64,000 nt of DNA from Phycisphaerae bacterium RAS2 (GTDB taxonomy: Bacteria > Planctomycetota > Phycisphaerae > UBA1845 > UTPLA1). The notes below the pieces were generated by a model that had not been told where the DNA came from, did no database searches, and was given only the letters and a program-made list of their open reading frames with translations. The position numbers were made by a program, and so were the translations under genes. The stretch is from contig CP036352.1 of the NCBI GenBank assembly GCA_007753915.1, forward strand, positions 3,783,306 to 3,847,305, in the 5' to 3' direction. Below are positions 7,093-45,934 of the stretch, one piece after another. The first letter of the stretch is position 1. Every line of letters starts with the position of its first letter.

Positions 7093-7182
7093 GCGATTGC
7101 GTGGTGATCGATGTCGCGGGGCGCTGATTGAATCGCGGCGAGCAAACTCGCTGGAGAAATACAAATTACGATACAGGTTACG

Positions 7183-7704
7183 ATGAACCAATTCGATTCT
7201 CATCCCACCATTCGCCCCGCCGCCGACTCGCGCGACTTCTCCGAAATCGGCCTGCTCATGCGTGAGTATCTCACCGAATTGGGCGTCGACTTATGCTTTC
7301 AGGATTTCGAGGGCGAGGTGGCCGACCTGCCCCGCACCTACGCCGCGCCGGATGGGGCGCTGCTCATCGCCCGCGCCGAGATCGACCCGTCCTCTCGTCA
7401 CCAGCCAACGGATCGCGCCGCCGCCGCAGGCTGCGTCGCCCTGCGCCGGGTCGGTGACACGCTCTGCGAGATGAAGCGGCTCTACGTCCGCCCGGCTCAT
7501 CGCGGCAGCGGCCTGGGCCGGCGACTCGTTGAGGCTGCGCTCGATCGCGCCCGCGAGATGGGCTTCTCGCGCGTGTGCCTCAATACCGTCGTGCCGAAGA
7601 TGCCAACCGCGGTCGCCCTGTACCGGTCGATGGGCTTTGTCGAAATCGAGCCGTTTGACTGTCACCCGGTCGACGGCACGCTGGCGATGGGCCGGCCTCT
7701 GTAG
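7183..7704 (+). CDS. GNAT-family N-acetyltransferase
   Basis: Acetyl-CoA-dependent N-acyltransferase of 173 aa. Motif A, which binds the acetyl-CoA pyrophosphate, reads MKRLYVRPAHRGSGLGRRLV, with the R/Q-x-x-G-x-G/A core intact as RGSGLG. Motif B follows as RVCLNTVVPKMPTAVALYRSMGF. The acceptor substrate is unknown. This is the common small single-domain form related to YafP/RimI-like proteins. ATG at 7183 has AGG five bases upstream. It stands alone between the zinc protein and the secreted protein at 7798. Confidence 0.88.
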   Translation: MNQFDSHPTIRPAADSRDFSEIGLLMREYLTELGVDLCFQDFEGEVADLPRTYAAPDGALLIARAEIDPSSRHQPTDRAAAAGCVALRRVGDTLCEMKRLYVRPAHRGSGLGRRLVEAALDRAREMGFSRVCLNTVVPKMPTAVALYRSMGFVEIEPFDCHPVDGTLAMGRPL

Positions 7705-7797
7705 CACCGCGGTCGATGCCGCGCGGTTGTCGCGGCCGTCTGCATGTATTAGACTGTGGTATAGGCGGGGCCGATTCGAATCAATGGGACCATCGCC

Positions 7798-9252
7798 ATG
7801 TTTCAACCCGTCTTGATCTGGCTGATCTTGCCGTTTTGCATTGCGCAGGATGATTCGGCATCGGGCTGGTCGCGTGACATGCCCGAGGCGCTTCGCAAAG
7901 CCCTCGACTATCGCAGCAAACCGCGAACGGGGTATGCGAAGTTCAAAGTGAAAAGCCGTGTCGGATATGCGCCAATCGTTGAGGCGCGTTACGAGCAGCG
8001 CTTTGCCGGCAACAATGTCGTCAGCAGGTACGCCTACGGCGAGGGCCGGGACGACCGCGAGTTGTTCTTGGCGGAGGATGGACTAACCGTCAACTGCATC
8101 AACAACCCTCCGAGCGTGTACGGCTCGAAAGCCTCCTCGCCTTTGACGCCTGACATTCGCACGCTGGGCCTGATTCCGGGCCTTTTTTCATCCATGAATC
8201 TTACGGACTGCATCAACATGCTCACAGTGCAAGGCAAACGCGAGTATCGATGGCGCATGGCCGGCGATGGAAAGATCCATGTCGAAGGTCGCAACAACAA
8301 GGAGAGCGGTGCGACGGATGAGATCAATTGGATCATCGATCCCTCGCGAGATTTCTCGATCGTCCACATCGCACGCACGTTGAACTCGCCCCCGTACGGC
8401 GAGAAGACGTACTACGAGTCGAAAATCGAAATCGGGCAATTCGATGGGTTCTGGTGGCCCCGGCGAGTAACTGCTCAACGCGATTCCACCAAACTGGCCG
8501 TGGACGTCGACGTGCTGGAACTCGAATTCAATCGCGCGGCCCATCCGCAGAAAATCGGCGTTGATCAGCTCGAATTGCCCATCGGGATGCTAGTCAACAT
8601 CACGATGTCAAAGTGCGAAGATTGGGGCTGGCACGAACTGCAAACGTTTGAGTACACGGGCGACAACAACCTTGTGCCAAAAGGTGAACCTCATCGAATC
8701 AAAGTAAGCAACTATAACATTCCACGGTTGATCGATTCCGGCCAATTCACACGGACCGCGGACGGCAATCTGCACATCGAAGTGACTCCCACCATGGTCA
8801 ACAGCGACGGAAAGATGGGGCCCTATCCACCCGAGTCGCGCAGCACGATCGCCGGCAATCCGGATGAGTGGGAGATTTACGTTCGCCGATGGATCGCACG
8901 GTACAGCGGCGAGGGACCGACGCCGGTCAAGGTGCCGCTCGACGAGAAGCAAAAGGCCGCGGCGATGGCGATACTCGAAGACTGCCGCAAGCAGGCCCGG
9001 CCGCTGGTCGAGCGCCGCAAGGCCGAGCGAATCGAAGCGGAAAAGACGTTCAATGCGCGGAACGCGGCAGTGCTCGCCGCGTCCCGGGGCGACGCGAAAC
9101 CTCCCTCGGCGCTGGTTCAGGACTTCCAGGCCGCGCAGAAGCGAGTCAGCGCGCTCCAACAGCCTGACCCGCAGGTTGAAGCGATTTTTGAGTCACTCAA
9201 GATGCGCCTCAACGGGCTTCCCACGGCAAAGCAGCGCATGCCGGGAAGGTAA
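7798..9252 (+). CDS. Secreted hypothetical protein
   Basis: Unrecognised protein of 484 aa. The first ~17 residues (FQPVLIWLILPFCIAQD) look like a signal peptide with cleavage after CIA. The body alternates beta-rich stretches resembling the LolA/outer-membrane lipoprotein carrier type of sheet (repeated short strands such as YAKFKVKSRVGYAPIVEARY), but no signature is strong enough to name it. Residues ~395-470 are Arg/Glu/Ala-rich and helical (DEKQKAAAMAILEDCRKQAR and onward), probably a coiled coil. Similar predicted exported proteins are frequent singletons in planctomycetes. Confidence 0.7.
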   Translation: MFQPVLIWLILPFCIAQDDSASGWSRDMPEALRKALDYRSKPRTGYAKFKVKSRVGYAPIVEARYEQRFAGNNVVSRYAYGEGRDDRELFLAEDGLTVNCINNPPSVYGSKASSPLTPDIRTLGLIPGLFSSMNLTDCINMLTVQGKREYRWRMAGDGKIHVEGRNNKESGATDEINWIIDPSRDFSIVHIARTLNSPPYGEKTYYESKIEIGQFDGFWWPRRVTAQRDSTKLAVDVDVLELEFNRAAHPQKIGVDQLELPIGMLVNITMSKCEDWGWHELQTFEYTGDNNLVPKGEPHRIKVSNYNIPRLIDSGQFTRTADGNLHIEVTPTMVNSDGKMGPYPPESRSTIAGNPDEWEIYVRRWIARYSGEGPTPVKVPLDEKQKAAAMAILEDCRKQARPLVERRKAERIEAEKTFNARNAAVLAASRGDAKPPSALVQDFQAAQKRVSALQQPDPQVEAIFESLKMRLNGLPTAKQRMPGR

Positions 9253-9387
9253 CTCCACCCGTCGCGCGCAAGAAAACGGGCGCACCGCGCTGTCGCACGA
9301 TGCGCCCGCTGATGGGTTGCCAATCATCACTGACGACTCCGACCCGCACGATCATTCAGGTCGGCGTCATCACTCATCGGCTGCCGG

Positions 9388-11190
9388 TCAGAAAAAGTCA
9401 ATCAGCGAGATCAGCAGATCGACGTACTCCGCCAGAGCCGTCTTCTGCGCCGAAGGCACCATCCAATCCTGCGGTGCGTTGACGCCGTCGATGCGATCCA
9501 GCAGGTTCTCCAACTGGTTCTGGGCCGCGTTGTAGTTCCCGTGGCTGATCAGCGCCGAAGCCAGCGCCGCGTGCAACGCAAGCGTGGCCCGCCGTGCCTT
9601 CTTGGCGATGGCGTTGTTCCCGGTAAACAGGTTGTGATCCATTTGCAGGATGTCGATCGCCAGTTGGCACGTCAGGCTTTGGAGGTATCCCTGCGTGACG
9701 CCGGGCTCCAACGGCAACGGGTCAACGTTGTCAGCGACGCCGTCGCCATCGGTATCGGCGCTGCACGGAGACGTGTGGAGCGTCAACAGCTCGTAGCCGT
9801 CGGGCAGGCTGTCACCATCCGAATCAGCCTGCGTCGGGTTCGGGCAGCCCGACCCCATGGCGGTGTCAACTTCAACGCCATCGCTCAAGCCGTCGCCGTC
9901 GGTGTCCGCGACAAGCGGATTCGTGCCGAAGACGGTCTCGTTCGCGTTCGACAAGCCGTCGCCGTCGATGTCGCCGTCGCAGGCATCGCCGATGCCGTCG
10001 CCGTCGAGGTCGGCCTGATCGGCGTTGGCGGTACTCGGACAGTTGTCCACATCGCCGCACAGTCCGTCGCCGTCCAGATCGTTGGCCGGATCATTCGGGC
10101 AGGCGTCGCAGGCATCGCCCTGCGCGTCGCCATCGGCGTTTTCCTGGCCGGTGTTCGCCACGTTCGGGCAGTTGTCCTCGTCGCCGCAGACGCCGTCGCC
10201 GTCCGCATCGTTGTTGGCGTCGAGCGGGCAGAGGTCACAGGCGTCGCCGAGCAGATCGCCGTCGGAGTCCTCCTGACCGGGGTTGGCAAAGCCGGGGCAG
10301 TTGTCGAGGTCTTCGCAGACGCCGTCACCGTCGCCGTCGTTGCTGGCGTCGTTGGAACAGACGTCGCAGATGTCGCCGATGCCGTCGCTGTCGGCGTCGT
10401 CCTGGCCGGCGTTGGGCAGCGTCGGGCAGTTGTCCACGTTCCCGCAGACGCCGTCGCCGTCGGAATCGTTGGCCGCGTCGAACGGGCACGCGTCGCACGC
10501 GTCGCCCAGACCGTCGCCGTCGGCATCCTCCTGACCAGGGTTGGCGTCGTCGGGGCAGTTGTCATCCTCGTCGGCGATGCCGTCGTCGTCGGCATCGGTC
10601 TCGGCAGGAGCAAACCGCAGGTTGTCAATCGCACCGGAAGGCGCCGAAACGGTCACGCGATGAATGGGCGTGGTCGATTCGATGCCGACAAAGCCGTGTT
10701 CGAGAAAGCCGCAGCCCGAGCCGTCAATGAACGGTCCTGTGAAGACCGCCGTCTCGATCACGTTGTTGTCCTCGTCGAAGGCCGTGAAGGTCGCGTTCTG
10801 GAAAAAGATCGCGACAAAGACAAACCCGAAGGCCTGCACCGGCGGGTCGAATTCCATCGACGTGGTGTTCGAAGCGGAGAGGCCGTACGGCGTCGAGCCG
10901 CCGGCGATGTCCTGAAGCAGCCGGAAGCACGCGTCGCTGTCGCGCACCACGCGGACATTCGGCTGAATCGTGACGCCCTGCGCCGCGTACTCGCCTGCGG
11001 GCATCGTGATGTTGGACATCACGGGCAGCGTCGCGCCGGAGCCGTCCTGCTCGAACGTGATGTGCGTGTGAGCGACCGAGTTGAAGTAACTGGCATCGGT
11101 GATGGGTGCGGCCCATGACCGATGGCCGGCTCCCAGCAACAGCGATCCCGCCGCGAGCGCGGCAAAAAAGAAACGTGTGCGCGTCAACAT
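9388..11190 (-). CDS. Secreted thrombospondin type-3 repeat protein
   Basis: Exported calcium-binding protein of about 600 aa. The signal peptide is MLTRTRFFFAALAAGSLLL...SWA. Residues ~30-200 form an all-beta domain of unknown ligand. Five tandem TSP3 units of about 43 residues follow, each of the form DNCP..N.GQ.D.DGDG.GDACD, then further D-x-D-x-D-G loops, each a likely Ca2+ site. The C-terminal ~110 residues are helical and resemble a conserved planctomycete/myxobacterial module (QSLTCQLAIDILQMDHNL) of unknown function. The start at 11190 is chosen over the frame's upstream Met because GGAGG lies 7 bases before it and the signal peptide begins there. DNA repeats of about 129 bp underlie the protein repeats. 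Confidence 0.88.
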   Translation of the reverse strand: MLTRTRFFFAALAAGSLLLGAGHRSWAAPITDASYFNSVAHTHITFEQDGSGATLPVMSNITMPAGEYAAQGVTIQPNVRVVRDSDACFRLLQDIAGGSTPYGLSASNTTSMEFDPPVQAFGFVFVAIFFQNATFTAFDEDNNVIETAVFTGPFIDGSGCGFLEHGFVGIESTTPIHRVTVSAPSGAIDNLRFAPAETDADDDGIADEDDNCPDDANPGQEDADGDGLGDACDACPFDAANDSDGDGVCGNVDNCPTLPNAGQDDADSDGIGDICDVCSNDASNDGDGDGVCEDLDNCPGFANPGQEDSDGDLLGDACDLCPLDANNDADGDGVCGDEDNCPNVANTGQENADGDAQGDACDACPNDPANDLDGDGLCGDVDNCPSTANADQADLDGDGIGDACDGDIDGDGLSNANETVFGTNPLVADTDGDGLSDGVEVDTAMGSGCPNPTQADSDGDSLPDGYELLTLHTSPCSADTDGDGVADNVDPLPLEPGVTQGYLQSLTCQLAIDILQMDHNLFTGNNAIAKKARRATLALHAALASALISHGNYNAAQNQLENLLDRIDGVNAPQDWMVPSAQKTALAEYVDLLISLIDFF

Positions 11191-42366: not shown

Positions 42367-42418
42367 AAAAAAAGGCGGCCTGCCCTCGTCAGATCCTTCC
42401 TAGACGGCAGACCGCGCC
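42367..42418 (-). terminator. Rho-independent terminator-like hairpin in the glycosyltransferase leader
   Basis: On the minus strand GGCGCGGUCUGCC (42418-42406) pairs with GGCAGGCCGCC (42384-42374) with a two-base bulge and one U-G pair, followed by seven U (42373-42367). It is the second terminator after the large RNA and lies 48 bases before the glycosyltransferase ATG, so it could also attenuate that gene. Confidence 0.7.
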
Positions 42419-42489: not shown

Positions 42490-43545
42490 AAAAAAATGCC
42501 ACGGAAGAGGTTTCGATCGCTTCGCCCTTCGAAGTCTTCGCCATCGTCCGTCGTACCGATCCGGTCTCCCGAATCGGCCGTCCCCTCTTGGGCTTGGCTA
42601 TCCGTTCAGAGGTCTGACAATCCCGCCGCCATCGCCGTTATTGCTTCGGCGAGGCCGCTTCACCGTTGGCCATCAGGCCCGGCCTTGCGGCTCTCGGCGG
42701 GTTGCTTCGATGCGACTGATTTAACTCGTTCGCATCGACCCTCTCTTCGGATTTCGCCGCCCTCCAGGGTTTTACCCGGACGACGCTAGCCGCTGCTTCT
42801 CAGCAACGGCCCCTTCCATGGGCTTCCGCGCCCCTTTGGCACATGCGTTCGCAAGAGGTCCGGTCATCCGCGAGCGTTGCCTGCCCGCCACCGTCCGTCC
42901 GCAGGGTTTCTTGCCACCCTCTCGACGGTTTGCTCCCTCTCGCGCCTTGTCCGCCCTGTTGCAGGCCGACAGCGCCGATGGGGTTCGCCCTTCGGAGCTT
43001 TCTCCTCACCAAGGTTGACCGGCGTCTTCCGCCGATGCCGACCCGCTTGCCGTTCACCACAGGCCTCGCTTCGACAAACCAGAGATTTGCCGAAGCTCGG
43101 GCCTGTCGCCCGACTTCCGGGTGCTTCCTCGGGTGAGTCCCTCGCGGCCGCGACGAGTTTGACCCCGCCTTGCCGCCGGTTGCTCCCCTGGGTTTCAGCC
43201 CTCTCAAGGGTTTACTTCGCCTGCCTTGGCCGCCCATTCCGACGGCTCATCCTCTCACGCGCTTGTCGGCCCCCGCGATTACTCGCGAGCGGCTTACCGT
43301 GCGCCGCAGAGACTCAATCAGCAGACGACCTGCCAAGCCCGAAGGCCCGGCGCCCTTCACAGGGTTTCGCGCCGCATGCTCCCTGGCGTTTGGCTTCTGA
43401 TTCGCCGACCCGGGCTATGGGTTCACCTCGCGACGCCGCCGTGTGTCACCACCGGTTCGGTCGCCGCTCTGGAGGCCGACGAGAGCCGACTTGCGCCGTC
43501 AGGGAGTCTGGTAGGCGCCGATCGAATTCGCCACTCTTCCGTGGC
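42490..43545 (-). ncRNA. Large structured non-coding RNA (~1,056 nt), family not recognised
   Basis: A stretch with no credible protein gene that encodes a folded RNA on the minus strand. The 5' end GCCACGGAAGAG (43545-43534) pairs perfectly over 12 bp with CUCUUCCGUGGC (42509-42498), followed by U7 (42496-42490); inside it CGAUCG at 43524-43519 pairs with 42519-42514. Local hairpins: CCGAUUCGG-GAGA-CCGGAUCGG (42577-42556), GCCGUUGCU-GAGA-AGCAGCGGC (42810-42789), CCGGGCC-UUCG-GGCUUGG (43350-43333), CGCGA-GUAA-UCGCG (43287-43274) and an 8-bp stem (43092-43072). They carry G-U pairs that are possible only on this strand and GNRA/UUCG loops. A repeated AAACCC-loop-GGG module occurs about four times (for example CCCU-GUGA-AGGG). 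It lacks RNase P, tmRNA, SRP and rRNA signatures. Confidence 0.86.
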
Positions 43546-43552
43546 AGAAGTG

Positions 43553-43580
43553 AATGTACAATGGGATTCGCGCGGGTCAA
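43553..43580 (-). promoter_or_regulatory. Promoter of the large RNA
   Basis: Minus-strand TTGACC (43580-43575, five of six to the -35 consensus), a 16-base spacer, and TACATT (43558-43553, four of six to the -10). The first base of the 12-bp closing helix (G at 43545) lies 8 bases after the -10, where transcription would begin. Confidence 0.72.
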
Positions 43581-43689
43581 ACGAAAAATTCGCGCGATGC
43601 AAAAGTCACAGGCGCGACGCGCGACTTGCAGTCGTCGCCCGCGCGCAAGCGTCGATGGAGCTATGAAATAACGTGACCGGTCGCGCCGT

Positions 43690-43720
43690 AAAAAAAGCCG
43701 CGTGTCGCGGCGGATTTTTT
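43690..43720. terminator. Bidirectional terminator-like hairpin
   Basis: GCCGCG-TGT-CGCGGC (43697-43711) flanked by seven A on the left and six T on the right, so it can end transcripts in either direction. It lies upstream of the large RNA promoter and insulates it from the defence-gene side. Confidence 0.65.
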
Positions 43721-43848
43721 GAACTCACAGGCGGCGCGCCGCCAAGGCCGATCGATTCCGCGCGCTTATTCACCGCCTCCCACCACAAATCACGGCTTTT
43801 CCACGGTTTGTCAACACGCACCGTCCGCCCCGCCGCCGGGGGCCTGCC

Positions 43849-44076: not shown

Positions 44077-44988
44077 ATGGGTGACATCAAGCTTTTTCGA
44101 GTCTCCGGAAACGGGGTCAGCGAAATCGAGGGCCAATCCGTAGCTGTTGAGAAGTCTCTGCAGGCGCTGATTGAGCGCCATCTCGACACGTTTCTCGGCG
44201 TTCGGTTTCTTGCCACCGAATACACCACCGGCAAGACCCACGGCGGACGGATCGACACGCTCGGCATCGACGAGAACGGTTGCCCGGTCATCATCGAATA
44301 CAAGCGGGCCACCAACGAAAACGTCATCAACCAAGGCCTCTTCTACCTCGATTGGTTGCTCGACCATAAGGCTGAGTTCAAGTTGCTCGTGATGGAGAAG
44401 TTTGGGAATCAGGCCGCCGACGAGATTGAATGGGCCGGCCCGCGGCTGATCTGCATCGCCGGCGATTTCACCCGCTACGACGAGCACGCCGTCCAGCAGA
44501 TCAACCGGAACATCGAGTTGATTCGTTATCGCCGCTACGGCGACGACCTTGTCCTTCTCGAACTCGTTAATGCAGTCACCGCCACAACGACCGAGGAGGA
44601 AGGTCCGAGCCCGCCCGCCGGTACGACCACTTACAAGACGATTTCCGAAACGCTTGCACAACTTACCGGCGAGCTGAAGGACCGCTTCGAAGCCGTCCGG
44701 GCATTCCTTCAAGCGCTCGGCGACGATGTCCAGATGAAGACACTCAAGTACTACGTCGCATTCAAACGCATCAAGAACTTCGCCTGCGTCGAGATTCGCA
44801 CTCAGGAGAAGAAAATCCTCATTTACACCAAGCTCGACCCATCAAGCGTGTCGCTCCAGGATGGTTTTACTCGTGATGTGGCGGAAATCGGGCATTTCGG
44901 CACCGGGGACTTGGAGATTACAATCCGCAACTCAGCCGACTTCGAACGGGCCAAGCCGCTGCTTATTCAGGCCTACGAGGGAAGTTGA
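44077..44988 (+). CDS. NucS/DUF91-like PD-(D/E)xK protein with C-terminal DUF5655-like domain
   Basis: Protein of 303 aa. Residues ~40-150 resemble the nuclease domain of NucS/DUF91 proteins: GGRIDTLGIDENGCPVIIEYKR supplies Asp, then the E-x-K pair, the catalytic pattern of PD-(D/E)xK nucleases, and NENVINQGLFYLDWLLDH follows as in the family. The C-terminal ~110 residues (LKDRFEAVRAFLQALGDDVQ...YVAFKRIKNFACVEI) fit the DUF5655 domain, common in defence and type-IV restriction contexts. GAGGAG lies 5 bases before the ATG. It is followed by an AbiJ/HEPN-like gene at 34 bp. DNA-end or branched-DNA cleavage is expected from the fold, but defence is inferred from context. Confidence 0.8.
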   Translation: MGDIKLFRVSGNGVSEIEGQSVAVEKSLQALIERHLDTFLGVRFLATEYTTGKTHGGRIDTLGIDENGCPVIIEYKRATNENVINQGLFYLDWLLDHKAEFKLLVMEKFGNQAADEIEWAGPRLICIAGDFTRYDEHAVQQINRNIELIRYRRYGDDLVLLELVNAVTATTTEEEGPSPPAGTTTYKTISETLAQLTGELKDRFEAVRAFLQALGDDVQMKTLKYYVAFKRIKNFACVEIRTQEKKILIYTKLDPSSVSLQDGFTRDVAEIGHFGTGDLEITIRNSADFERAKPLLIQAYEGS

Positions 44989-45022
44989 GCAGCTCCATCT
45001 GGCAACGTACTTGAGGTGTGAA

Positions 45023-45934
45023 TTGAAGTCCCTATTCTCAAAGCGTAACGCACCGTCTCCGACCCAGCTCCGCTACGACCTGCCCGACCAGGTACGGTCT
45101 CGGGTTCTGGCTGTCTTTCGGGATCTTTGCTACGAACCCAACGGCGGATTCGACGCACTGCTCAGCGAGGTTGGTCACCGCCTTTTCAAGGAGTACGGCT
45201 GTCTTCGCGCGTCTGGATACGAAGCCGCGCGCCGAAGCAACAACCCCGTCATCGAGCACTTTTTCTGCTGTCGAGACGAGGAGGCGCTCGACTTCATCGA
45301 AGCGTGCTTTCGGCCGTTTCTTTACAACGGCGGTCAACGGGGCGTGGATGAGATCAACGCGATCTTTCGTGAGCACGGTGTGGCATATGAGTTGTCGCCG
45401 TATGTACGGCACGAAGTGGAGAAAGAGACTTCGCTCTTTGGACGCATGCGGCCGGGAAAGGTCTTCGAAATCGAGTATCCGCGCATCATTCCCAGGGCGG
45501 ATCACTTGGTTCACACGGACATCGTCGAGCCGACACTGAAGCTGCTAACGAACTCGAAGCTCCGCGTCGCAAACGCGGAGATGCTCAAGGCCCACGCGGC
45601 ACTGCGGGCCGGCGAGTTTGAGGATGCGATCACGCTCTGCGGCTCGGCGTTCGAAAGTGTGCTTAAGACGATCTGTGACCTGAGGAAATGGCCGTACGAT
45701 CCCAACCGCGACACCTGTGCCAAGCTTGTCGGCATCTGCCGCGACAACAGTCTATTCCCGGCATTCTATGCGCCGATCTTCGAGTCCGTTGGAACGATTC
45801 GAAACAAGCTCGGCGACGCCCATGGGCGCGGCCCGGCTCCTCAACATACTGTGACTCAAGAGCAAGCCGAGCACATGTTGCACTCGACTGCTTCGCATGT
45901 CCTTCTACTCGCCAAGCTTGCCGGCCTTGGATAG
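45023..45934 (+). CDS. AbiJ-like abortive infection protein with C-terminal HEPN-like motif
   Basis: Protein of about 303 aa. The N-terminus (MKSLFSKRNAPSPTQLRYDL) matches the AbiJ N-terminal domain pattern of xLFSxRN. The C-terminal half (AALRAGEFEDAITLCGSAFESVLKTICD...IRNKLGDAHG) resembles the abortive-infection C-terminal domain; RNKLGDAH is an R-x6-H motif with Asn after Arg, as in HEPN RNases. A TTG start at 45023 is proposed because GAGG lies 6 bases before it and the conserved N-terminus starts there; the frame itself is open from 44861. It is one transcription unit with the NucS-like gene. Cutting of host or phage RNA on infection is the expected action, from family knowledge only. 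Confidence 0.78.
   Translation: MKSLFSKRNAPSPTQLRYDLPDQVRSRVLAVFRDLCYEPNGGFDALLSEVGHRLFKEYGCLRASGYEAARRSNNPVIEHFFCCRDEEALDFIEACFRPFLYNGGQRGVDEINAIFREHGVAYELSPYVRHEVEKETSLFGRMRPGKVFEIEYPRIIPRADHLVHTDIVEPTLKLLTNSKLRVANAEMLKAHAALRAGEFEDAITLCGSAFESVLKTICDLRKWPYDPNRDTCAKLVGICRDNSLFPAFYAPIFESVGTIRNKLGDAHGRGPAPQHTVTQEQAEHMLHSTASHVLLLAKLAGLG

Follow-up and report, generated by a model that had tools for sequence, protein, structure and literature searches.

A structured noncoding RNA of 1056 nt (~1.05 kb) is predicted at positions 42490-43545 on the minus strand of the window, by which we mean the whole 64,000-nucleotide stretch of the Phycisphaerae bacterium RAS2 chromosome that was analysed, and comparison of its homologues indicates that it almost certainly represents a real and previously uncatalogued class of structured RNA in the Planctomycetota. 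It is present once in the host genome (4.32 Mb, a single contig). The preliminary description of this DNA had proposed a large structured RNA with paired ends at this locus, but missed three of its properties: the five-fold repetition of one domain, the distribution across the phylum, and the boxA found with homologues in other classes. The features of the locus, in coordinates of the window, are these.

43575-43580, minus strand: -35 element TTGACC (promoter comparison over 32 homologues)
43553-43558, minus strand: -10 element TACATT, ending 7 nt before the 5' G of the RNA
43545 (5' end) to 42490 (3' end), minus strand: structured noncoding RNA, ~1056 nt (homologues, covariation, promoter, U run)
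43534-43545, minus strand: 5' arm of the terminal helix P0 (helix 1), GCCACGGAAGAG, which in an alternative 5' hairpin (GCCAC/GUGGC) forms the first half
43369-43533, minus strand: 5' domain (helices 3-12), whose loop GGUGAACNCAUAGCC is highly conserved (consensus structure)
43197-43367, minus strand: domain A, used for model R3 (the domain-C model matches L024, L015 and L026 at the same borders)
42986-43196, minus strand: domain B (R2 matches in L138 and L134; R3 matches in L131 and L128)
42829-42985, minus strand: domain C, the best conserved core, used for models R1 and R2 (covariance models)
42523-42826, minus strand: domain D, which contains E (consensus structure)
42600-42754, minus strand: domain E, nested in D (R2 matches in L130, L142, L028 and L031; R3 matches in L137, L140 and L134)
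42498-42509, minus strand: 3' arm of P0, CUCUUCCGUGGC, the perfect complement of the 5' arm
42490-42496, minus strand: U7 after the terminal helix (read in the sequence; the RNA ends CUCUUCCGUGGC-A-U7)
42367-42418, minus strand: second, ordinary terminator-like hairpin followed by T7, 70-120 nt downstream of the RNA (read in the sequence rather than scored by a terminator tool)

The blastn check suggested in the preliminary description, carried out in 60 relatives, gave matches in 26 genomes besides the window's own, one of these being judged a chance match, and it yielded full-length homologues with abundant compensatory changes: every homologue that we attempted to extend ran to full length (1038-1124 nt), with the same two ends and an end-to-end alignment. 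The short matches L034 (31 nt) and G749 (72 nt, 26.7 bits) were set aside as chance. R1, a covariance model of the core of the RNA (domain C), detects it in 47 of the 114 genomes of the window's order; in a sample of the class 40 of 397 genomes were positive, all within that same order and none in the other orders, and in a sample of the phylum the positives numbered about 31 of 391 other Planctomycetota genomes, all outside the class (36 at E<=1e-4 with the broader model R2). Only Planctomycetota were represented among the 20 contigs matched when a 22-base-specific pattern was run over 84,980 species genomes. Several near relatives are without the RNA, and this patchy distribution implies that it is not universally essential. 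Most carrier genomes hold one copy, which is chromosomal and free-standing. Two copies of the core occur in G445, G544, G571 and G583, on separate contigs or far apart, and in G001, which belongs to the same genus as the window's genome, a 121-bp fragment of the 5' end (93% identical) adjoins rnpA, with an intact RNA 2.7 kb away behind an insertion that carries two or three ORFs (L088:7058-7181, 7182-9749).

Alignment A2, comprising 32 full-length RNAs, was used to derive a consensus structure with RNAalifold, which placed 302 pairs at -638 kcal/mol for the sense strand against -543 for the antisense, in agreement with the earlier claim that the pairing favours one strand. Paired cells make up 89.9% of this 302-pair consensus, compared with 77.1% after shuffling and 36-42% once the pairing is slid by 1-3 columns; two-sided changes occur at 214 pairs (143 shuffled), and the covariation score is 0.419 (0.185 shuffled, about 0.09 slid), the slid comparison being a generous one because the structure was taken from the same alignment. 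An independent test on the 19 sequences of other classes alone recovered the same core (domain-C) fold with 25 of 32 pairs compensated, and the window copy itself has standard pairs at 239 of 296 consensus pairs. No reading frame stays open across the 32 homologues (the minimum of the longest open run is 42-78 codons of ~369), so the kilobase is protein-free as first described, and the five indels that separate the window copy from a 93%-identical relative are all of 1-2 nt.

In the consensus the 5' and 3' ends are paired and five arms (the 5' domain, A, B, C and D) issue from one central junction. The preliminary description had counted at least five hairpins with GNRA or UUCG loops, and the alignment bears this out, with GNRA loops on five hairpins in 28-31 of the 32 sequences and UUCG loops also occurring. 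Its AAACCC-loop-GGG module does recur, but not in the form of independent hairpins: the AAACCC...GGG modules supply the 5' strands of long-range helices that are interrupted by 3x3 internal loops. There are ten such helices, two in each domain, and in the window their loops are of the types GUG/GAG, GCG/GUG, GAA/AAG, GAG/GCG, AUG/GAA, AAG/GAA and AAG/GAA. Unpaired stretches that are invariant over the 32 sequences comprise the GGUGAACNCAUAGCC loop, GCUAAAC, GUGAAACAAA and AACCAAUA. One lineage (L016, L019, L057) has an additional 60-100 nt in the domain-D hairpin (A2 columns 824-900), which is a variable arm.

Domains A-E are, on the comparison of their sequences and predicted pairing, very probably copies of one fold. 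They share a plan that opens with 4 bp, a 3x3 purine-rich loop and 4-5 bp, then a hairpin and 9-11 bp, and continues through a 5-8-nt A-rich strand to 4-5 bp, a 3x3 loop, a further 4-5 bp and a 3' hairpin, the last often with a GNRA loop. Model R2, built from domain C only and searched over 45 loci, returned 54 secondary matches at E<=1, all on the sense strand and all inside the RNA with the exception of L033:2632-2794, in a sequence space of which the RNA accounts for about 13%. The best of these reached 2.8e-7 (D/E of L130), followed by 1.4e-5 for domain A of L137 and 3.2e-5 for that of L024. Secondary matches fall at domain borders, and several coincide with domain A borders that had been set independently from the consensus (1139-1314 against 1139-1313 in L024; also 1688-1864 in L015 and 1820-1999 in L026). 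Model R3 was made with the domain A sequences of 25 Phycisphaerae, L024, L015 and L026 being left out. It finds domain A in most other-class homologues and also matches domains B (L131, 2.9e-7), E (L137, 8.2e-7; L140, 1.4e-6) and C (L136, 1.4e-3); its calibration on little sequence makes these E-values rough, and the position and strand statistics are independent of them. Because borders and order match, we infer domain duplication, convergence to a docking motif being less likely. The 5' domain is possibly a sixth, divergent copy.

A sigma-70-type promoter, upstream of the 5' end by 4-10 nt and in most cases by 6-7 nt, is common to the 32 full-length homologues, with a spacing between its conserved -35 and -10 elements of 16 nt in the window and 16-17 nt in all 32, and with a mean score of 8.4 against 6.0 in shuffled upstream DNA (maximum 6.4, 200 shuffles). 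The RNA appears to have a promoter of its own, as had been proposed, although the distance of 8 bases given between -10 box and start should read 7 nt. RNA polymerase would begin ~6-7 nt past the -10 box, at or adjacent to the first paired base. Just upstream of the promoter a hairpin flanked by A6 and T7 (window 43691-43720; a weak isrK-like match, 16.7 bits) is probably a bidirectional terminator. Also upstream are the repeats AAGTCACAGG / AACTCACAGG (CCTGTGANTT on the RNA strand) at window positions 43608-43617 and 43722-43730, and CCTGTGA-like motifs, which are found repeatedly upstream of many homologues, may be a regulator site.

The perfect 12-bp helix originally read between the two ends is confirmed: its arms are fully complementary, and it covaries, with two-sided changes at 6 of 10 pairs. 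The U7 finish is present as well, and U5 or longer follows P0 in 30 of the 32 homologues. Given the ordinary terminator-like hairpin downstream, transcription may run on past this U7, which would then be a processing site; local hairpins near the 3' end are feasible in several homologues, and the long-range P0 is likewise a candidate terminator stem. The first twelve bases at the 5' end can pair in either of two ways, both conserved and each excluding the other: in the terminal helix, or in a 5' hairpin that has 5/5 pairs in 28 of 32 sequences, one of them covarying (GC/CG/UG). The 5' end may fold first as this local hairpin and be taken over later by the 3' end, on closure of P0.

In classes other than the window's a boxA of CUCUUUGACAA type precedes the RNA or lies just after its first arm. 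When at most one mismatch is allowed, 12 of the 19 other-class RNAs have it close to their 5' end, where the expectation per locus is 0.012, and this count is a lower bound since the automatic terminal-helix finder misplaced some 5' ends (for example in L133, L136 and L142). Regular-expression searches located 16S leaders with boxA of the same form in the window's own genome (G000) and in G001, G019, G413, G415, G422 and G443, and a looser boxA upstream of 16S in G429 and G453. A leader-trailer helix together with boxA is the layout of pre-rRNA (PMC10250234), and its occurrence here speaks for a long RNA that is not translated and has to avoid termination by Rho. In the other classes a boxA-bound antitermination complex could help polymerase through the untranslated kilobase, as it does in rRNA. 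Any such likeness would be one of layout, in that the closing helix is present in the window's clade and the other-class boxA matches the form of the host rRNA boxA, whereas the RNA is non-homologous to rRNA; the Phycisphaerae copies have no recognisable boxA, and their transcripts appear to begin at the RNA itself.

No neighbour gene is common to the 21 loci compared over up to 10 kb per side, and clustering found no family flanking the RNA in more than four of the 21. The gene rnpA (named, like PhoH, by reading protein sequences) lies divergently beside the RNA in six members of a single family (f1), being placed beside the RNA by clustering in G001, G002, G009 and G015 and through the antisense of the same gene in G013 and the window, where it lies ~2.5 kb from the RNA across a DUF5655/NucS-like gene. 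This gene, with its DUF5655 / NucS C-terminal domain, and a second ORF occupy window positions 44077-45934 between the RNA and rnpA; they are absent from that position in the sister genome. PhoH precedes the RNA in four genomes, and other flanking genes include recA, a solute-binding protein (SBP), prephenate dehydratase, a methyltransferase and Fer4. A conserved operon partner was rejected, as rnpA and PhoH recur within lineages only, and the lack of a conserved neighbour leaves the RNA without an evident target in cis.

The suggestion that the RNA is none of OLE, ROOL and GOLLD held for both the window and the homologues: against the window Rfam 15 gave no family at gathering score and chance-level matches only at E<=10, and against 13 homologues it gave no relevant match at E<=5, group II introns and other Rfam ribozymes being without a match in either. 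The window contains no tRNA. Searches of phage, plasmid and viral collections and with IMG/VR patterns returned no match to the RNA, on which grounds a phage or plasmid origin was rejected, and literature searches of partial coverage found no account of such an RNA. Like ROOL and GOLLD (about 660 and over 800 nt, respectively), the RNA is large, extensively covarying and without a known protein partner; unlike them it is longer, matches no Rfam model, lies outside phages, prophage-type contigs and tRNA islands, and is made up of one domain repeated five times, with a 5'-3' helix closing the whole. ROOL and GOLLD are possible RNA-only particles (PMC12286853), and any likeness to them may, by analogy, be in role and not by descent. 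OLE (~600 nt, in Bacillota) is likewise a large, ornate, accessory and chromosomal bacterial RNA, from which the present one is set apart by having no sequence or Rfam-model match to it and no conserved neighbour genes. Repetition of one RNA fold within a transcript is familiar from tandem riboswitches such as those for glycine. Here, by contrast, there are five copies, one of them nested, around one closed junction, and the RNA is no gene's 5' leader and matches no Rfam riboswitch.

Taken as a whole, the observations are best explained by a stable structural RNA, most likely a ribonucleoprotein scaffold or a self-assembling particle, and to this account as a whole we assign a probability of roughly 0.55; that it is specifically a scaffold or particle rather than a ribozyme, regulator or mRNA falls a little short of an even bet. 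The mature RNA would be stable and pseudo-symmetric, a scaffold that holds several copies of one partner on its repeated domains (an RNP) or, alternatively, one whose domains use GNRA loops and self-complementary CCCU-NNN-AGGG strands to dock into an RNA-only particle of the kind considered for ROOL and GOLLD. Five equal domains with such loops and strands suit several copies of one partner or docking alike; the palindromic strands are no proof of oligomerisation. More tentatively, five duplicated domains around a closed junction could make a single pseudo-symmetric chain that forms an RNA particle or compartment, with antitermination of the rRNA kind in some classes.

A large ribozyme or ribozyme-like RNA, in which the invariant unpaired stretches would form the active site and the domains its frame, would accord with the many invariant unpaired positions over 32 sequences, with five or more GNRA loops that could serve in tertiary docking and with a size and conservation resembling known large ribozymes; we regard it as unlikely, given that no Rfam ribozyme is similar, that the distribution is patchy, and that a five-fold repetition suggests repeated sites for binding or docking and not one active site. 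CsrB and CsrC titrate CsrA through repeated sites, and a multi-ligand sensor or sponge, each of whose domains titrates the same small molecule, protein or RNA, would make use of one domain in five copies and of the strong, constitutive-looking promoter, with rnpA as divergent neighbour in six relatives a further point in its favour. Long-range structure and a closed 5'-3' helix nevertheless exceed what a sponge needs, and with no conserved neighbour there is no downstream gene controlled in cis, which makes this regulatory role doubtful.

Patchy presence, the 5' fragment and full copy in G001 and the duplicated copies in four genomes could also be expected of a relic or passenger of a mobile element, an RNA of intron-like or satellite type with a structure that promotes its own spread. 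We consider this improbable: nearly all carriers have a single copy, the RNA has closed ends and a promoter of its own, the flanking genes tested include no linked recombinase or reverse transcriptase, and the phage, plasmid and viral collections hold no match. Even less credible, and already largely refuted, is a divergent or accessory rRNA-like or RNase P-like RNA; boxA and a closing helix are typical of pre-rRNA (PMC10250234) and rnpA adjoins the RNA in six relatives, yet 16S is intact elsewhere and the RNA matches no Rfam rRNA or RNase P model. RNase P RNA itself is ruled out by a canonical RF00010 gene elsewhere in the same genome (G000:C1:3701239-3701676, 268 bits), and RF00010 is separate from the RNA in 55 of 61 genomes (the window's own and 54 of 60 relatives).

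Known non-ribosomal bacterial RNAs this large and this conserved are few, and what OLE, ROOL and GOLLD do is still poorly understood. The class described here is longer than these three, unrelated to them by the tests run, and widespread in uncultured Planctomycetota; it would be a good target for cryo-EM, with the covariance models, domain borders and boxA providing testable handles. With one fold present five times, it would offer a natural example of a large RNA evolving by domain duplication, and a pseudo-symmetric RNA of this kind, if the structural reading is true, would be an RNA counterpart of repeat proteins.
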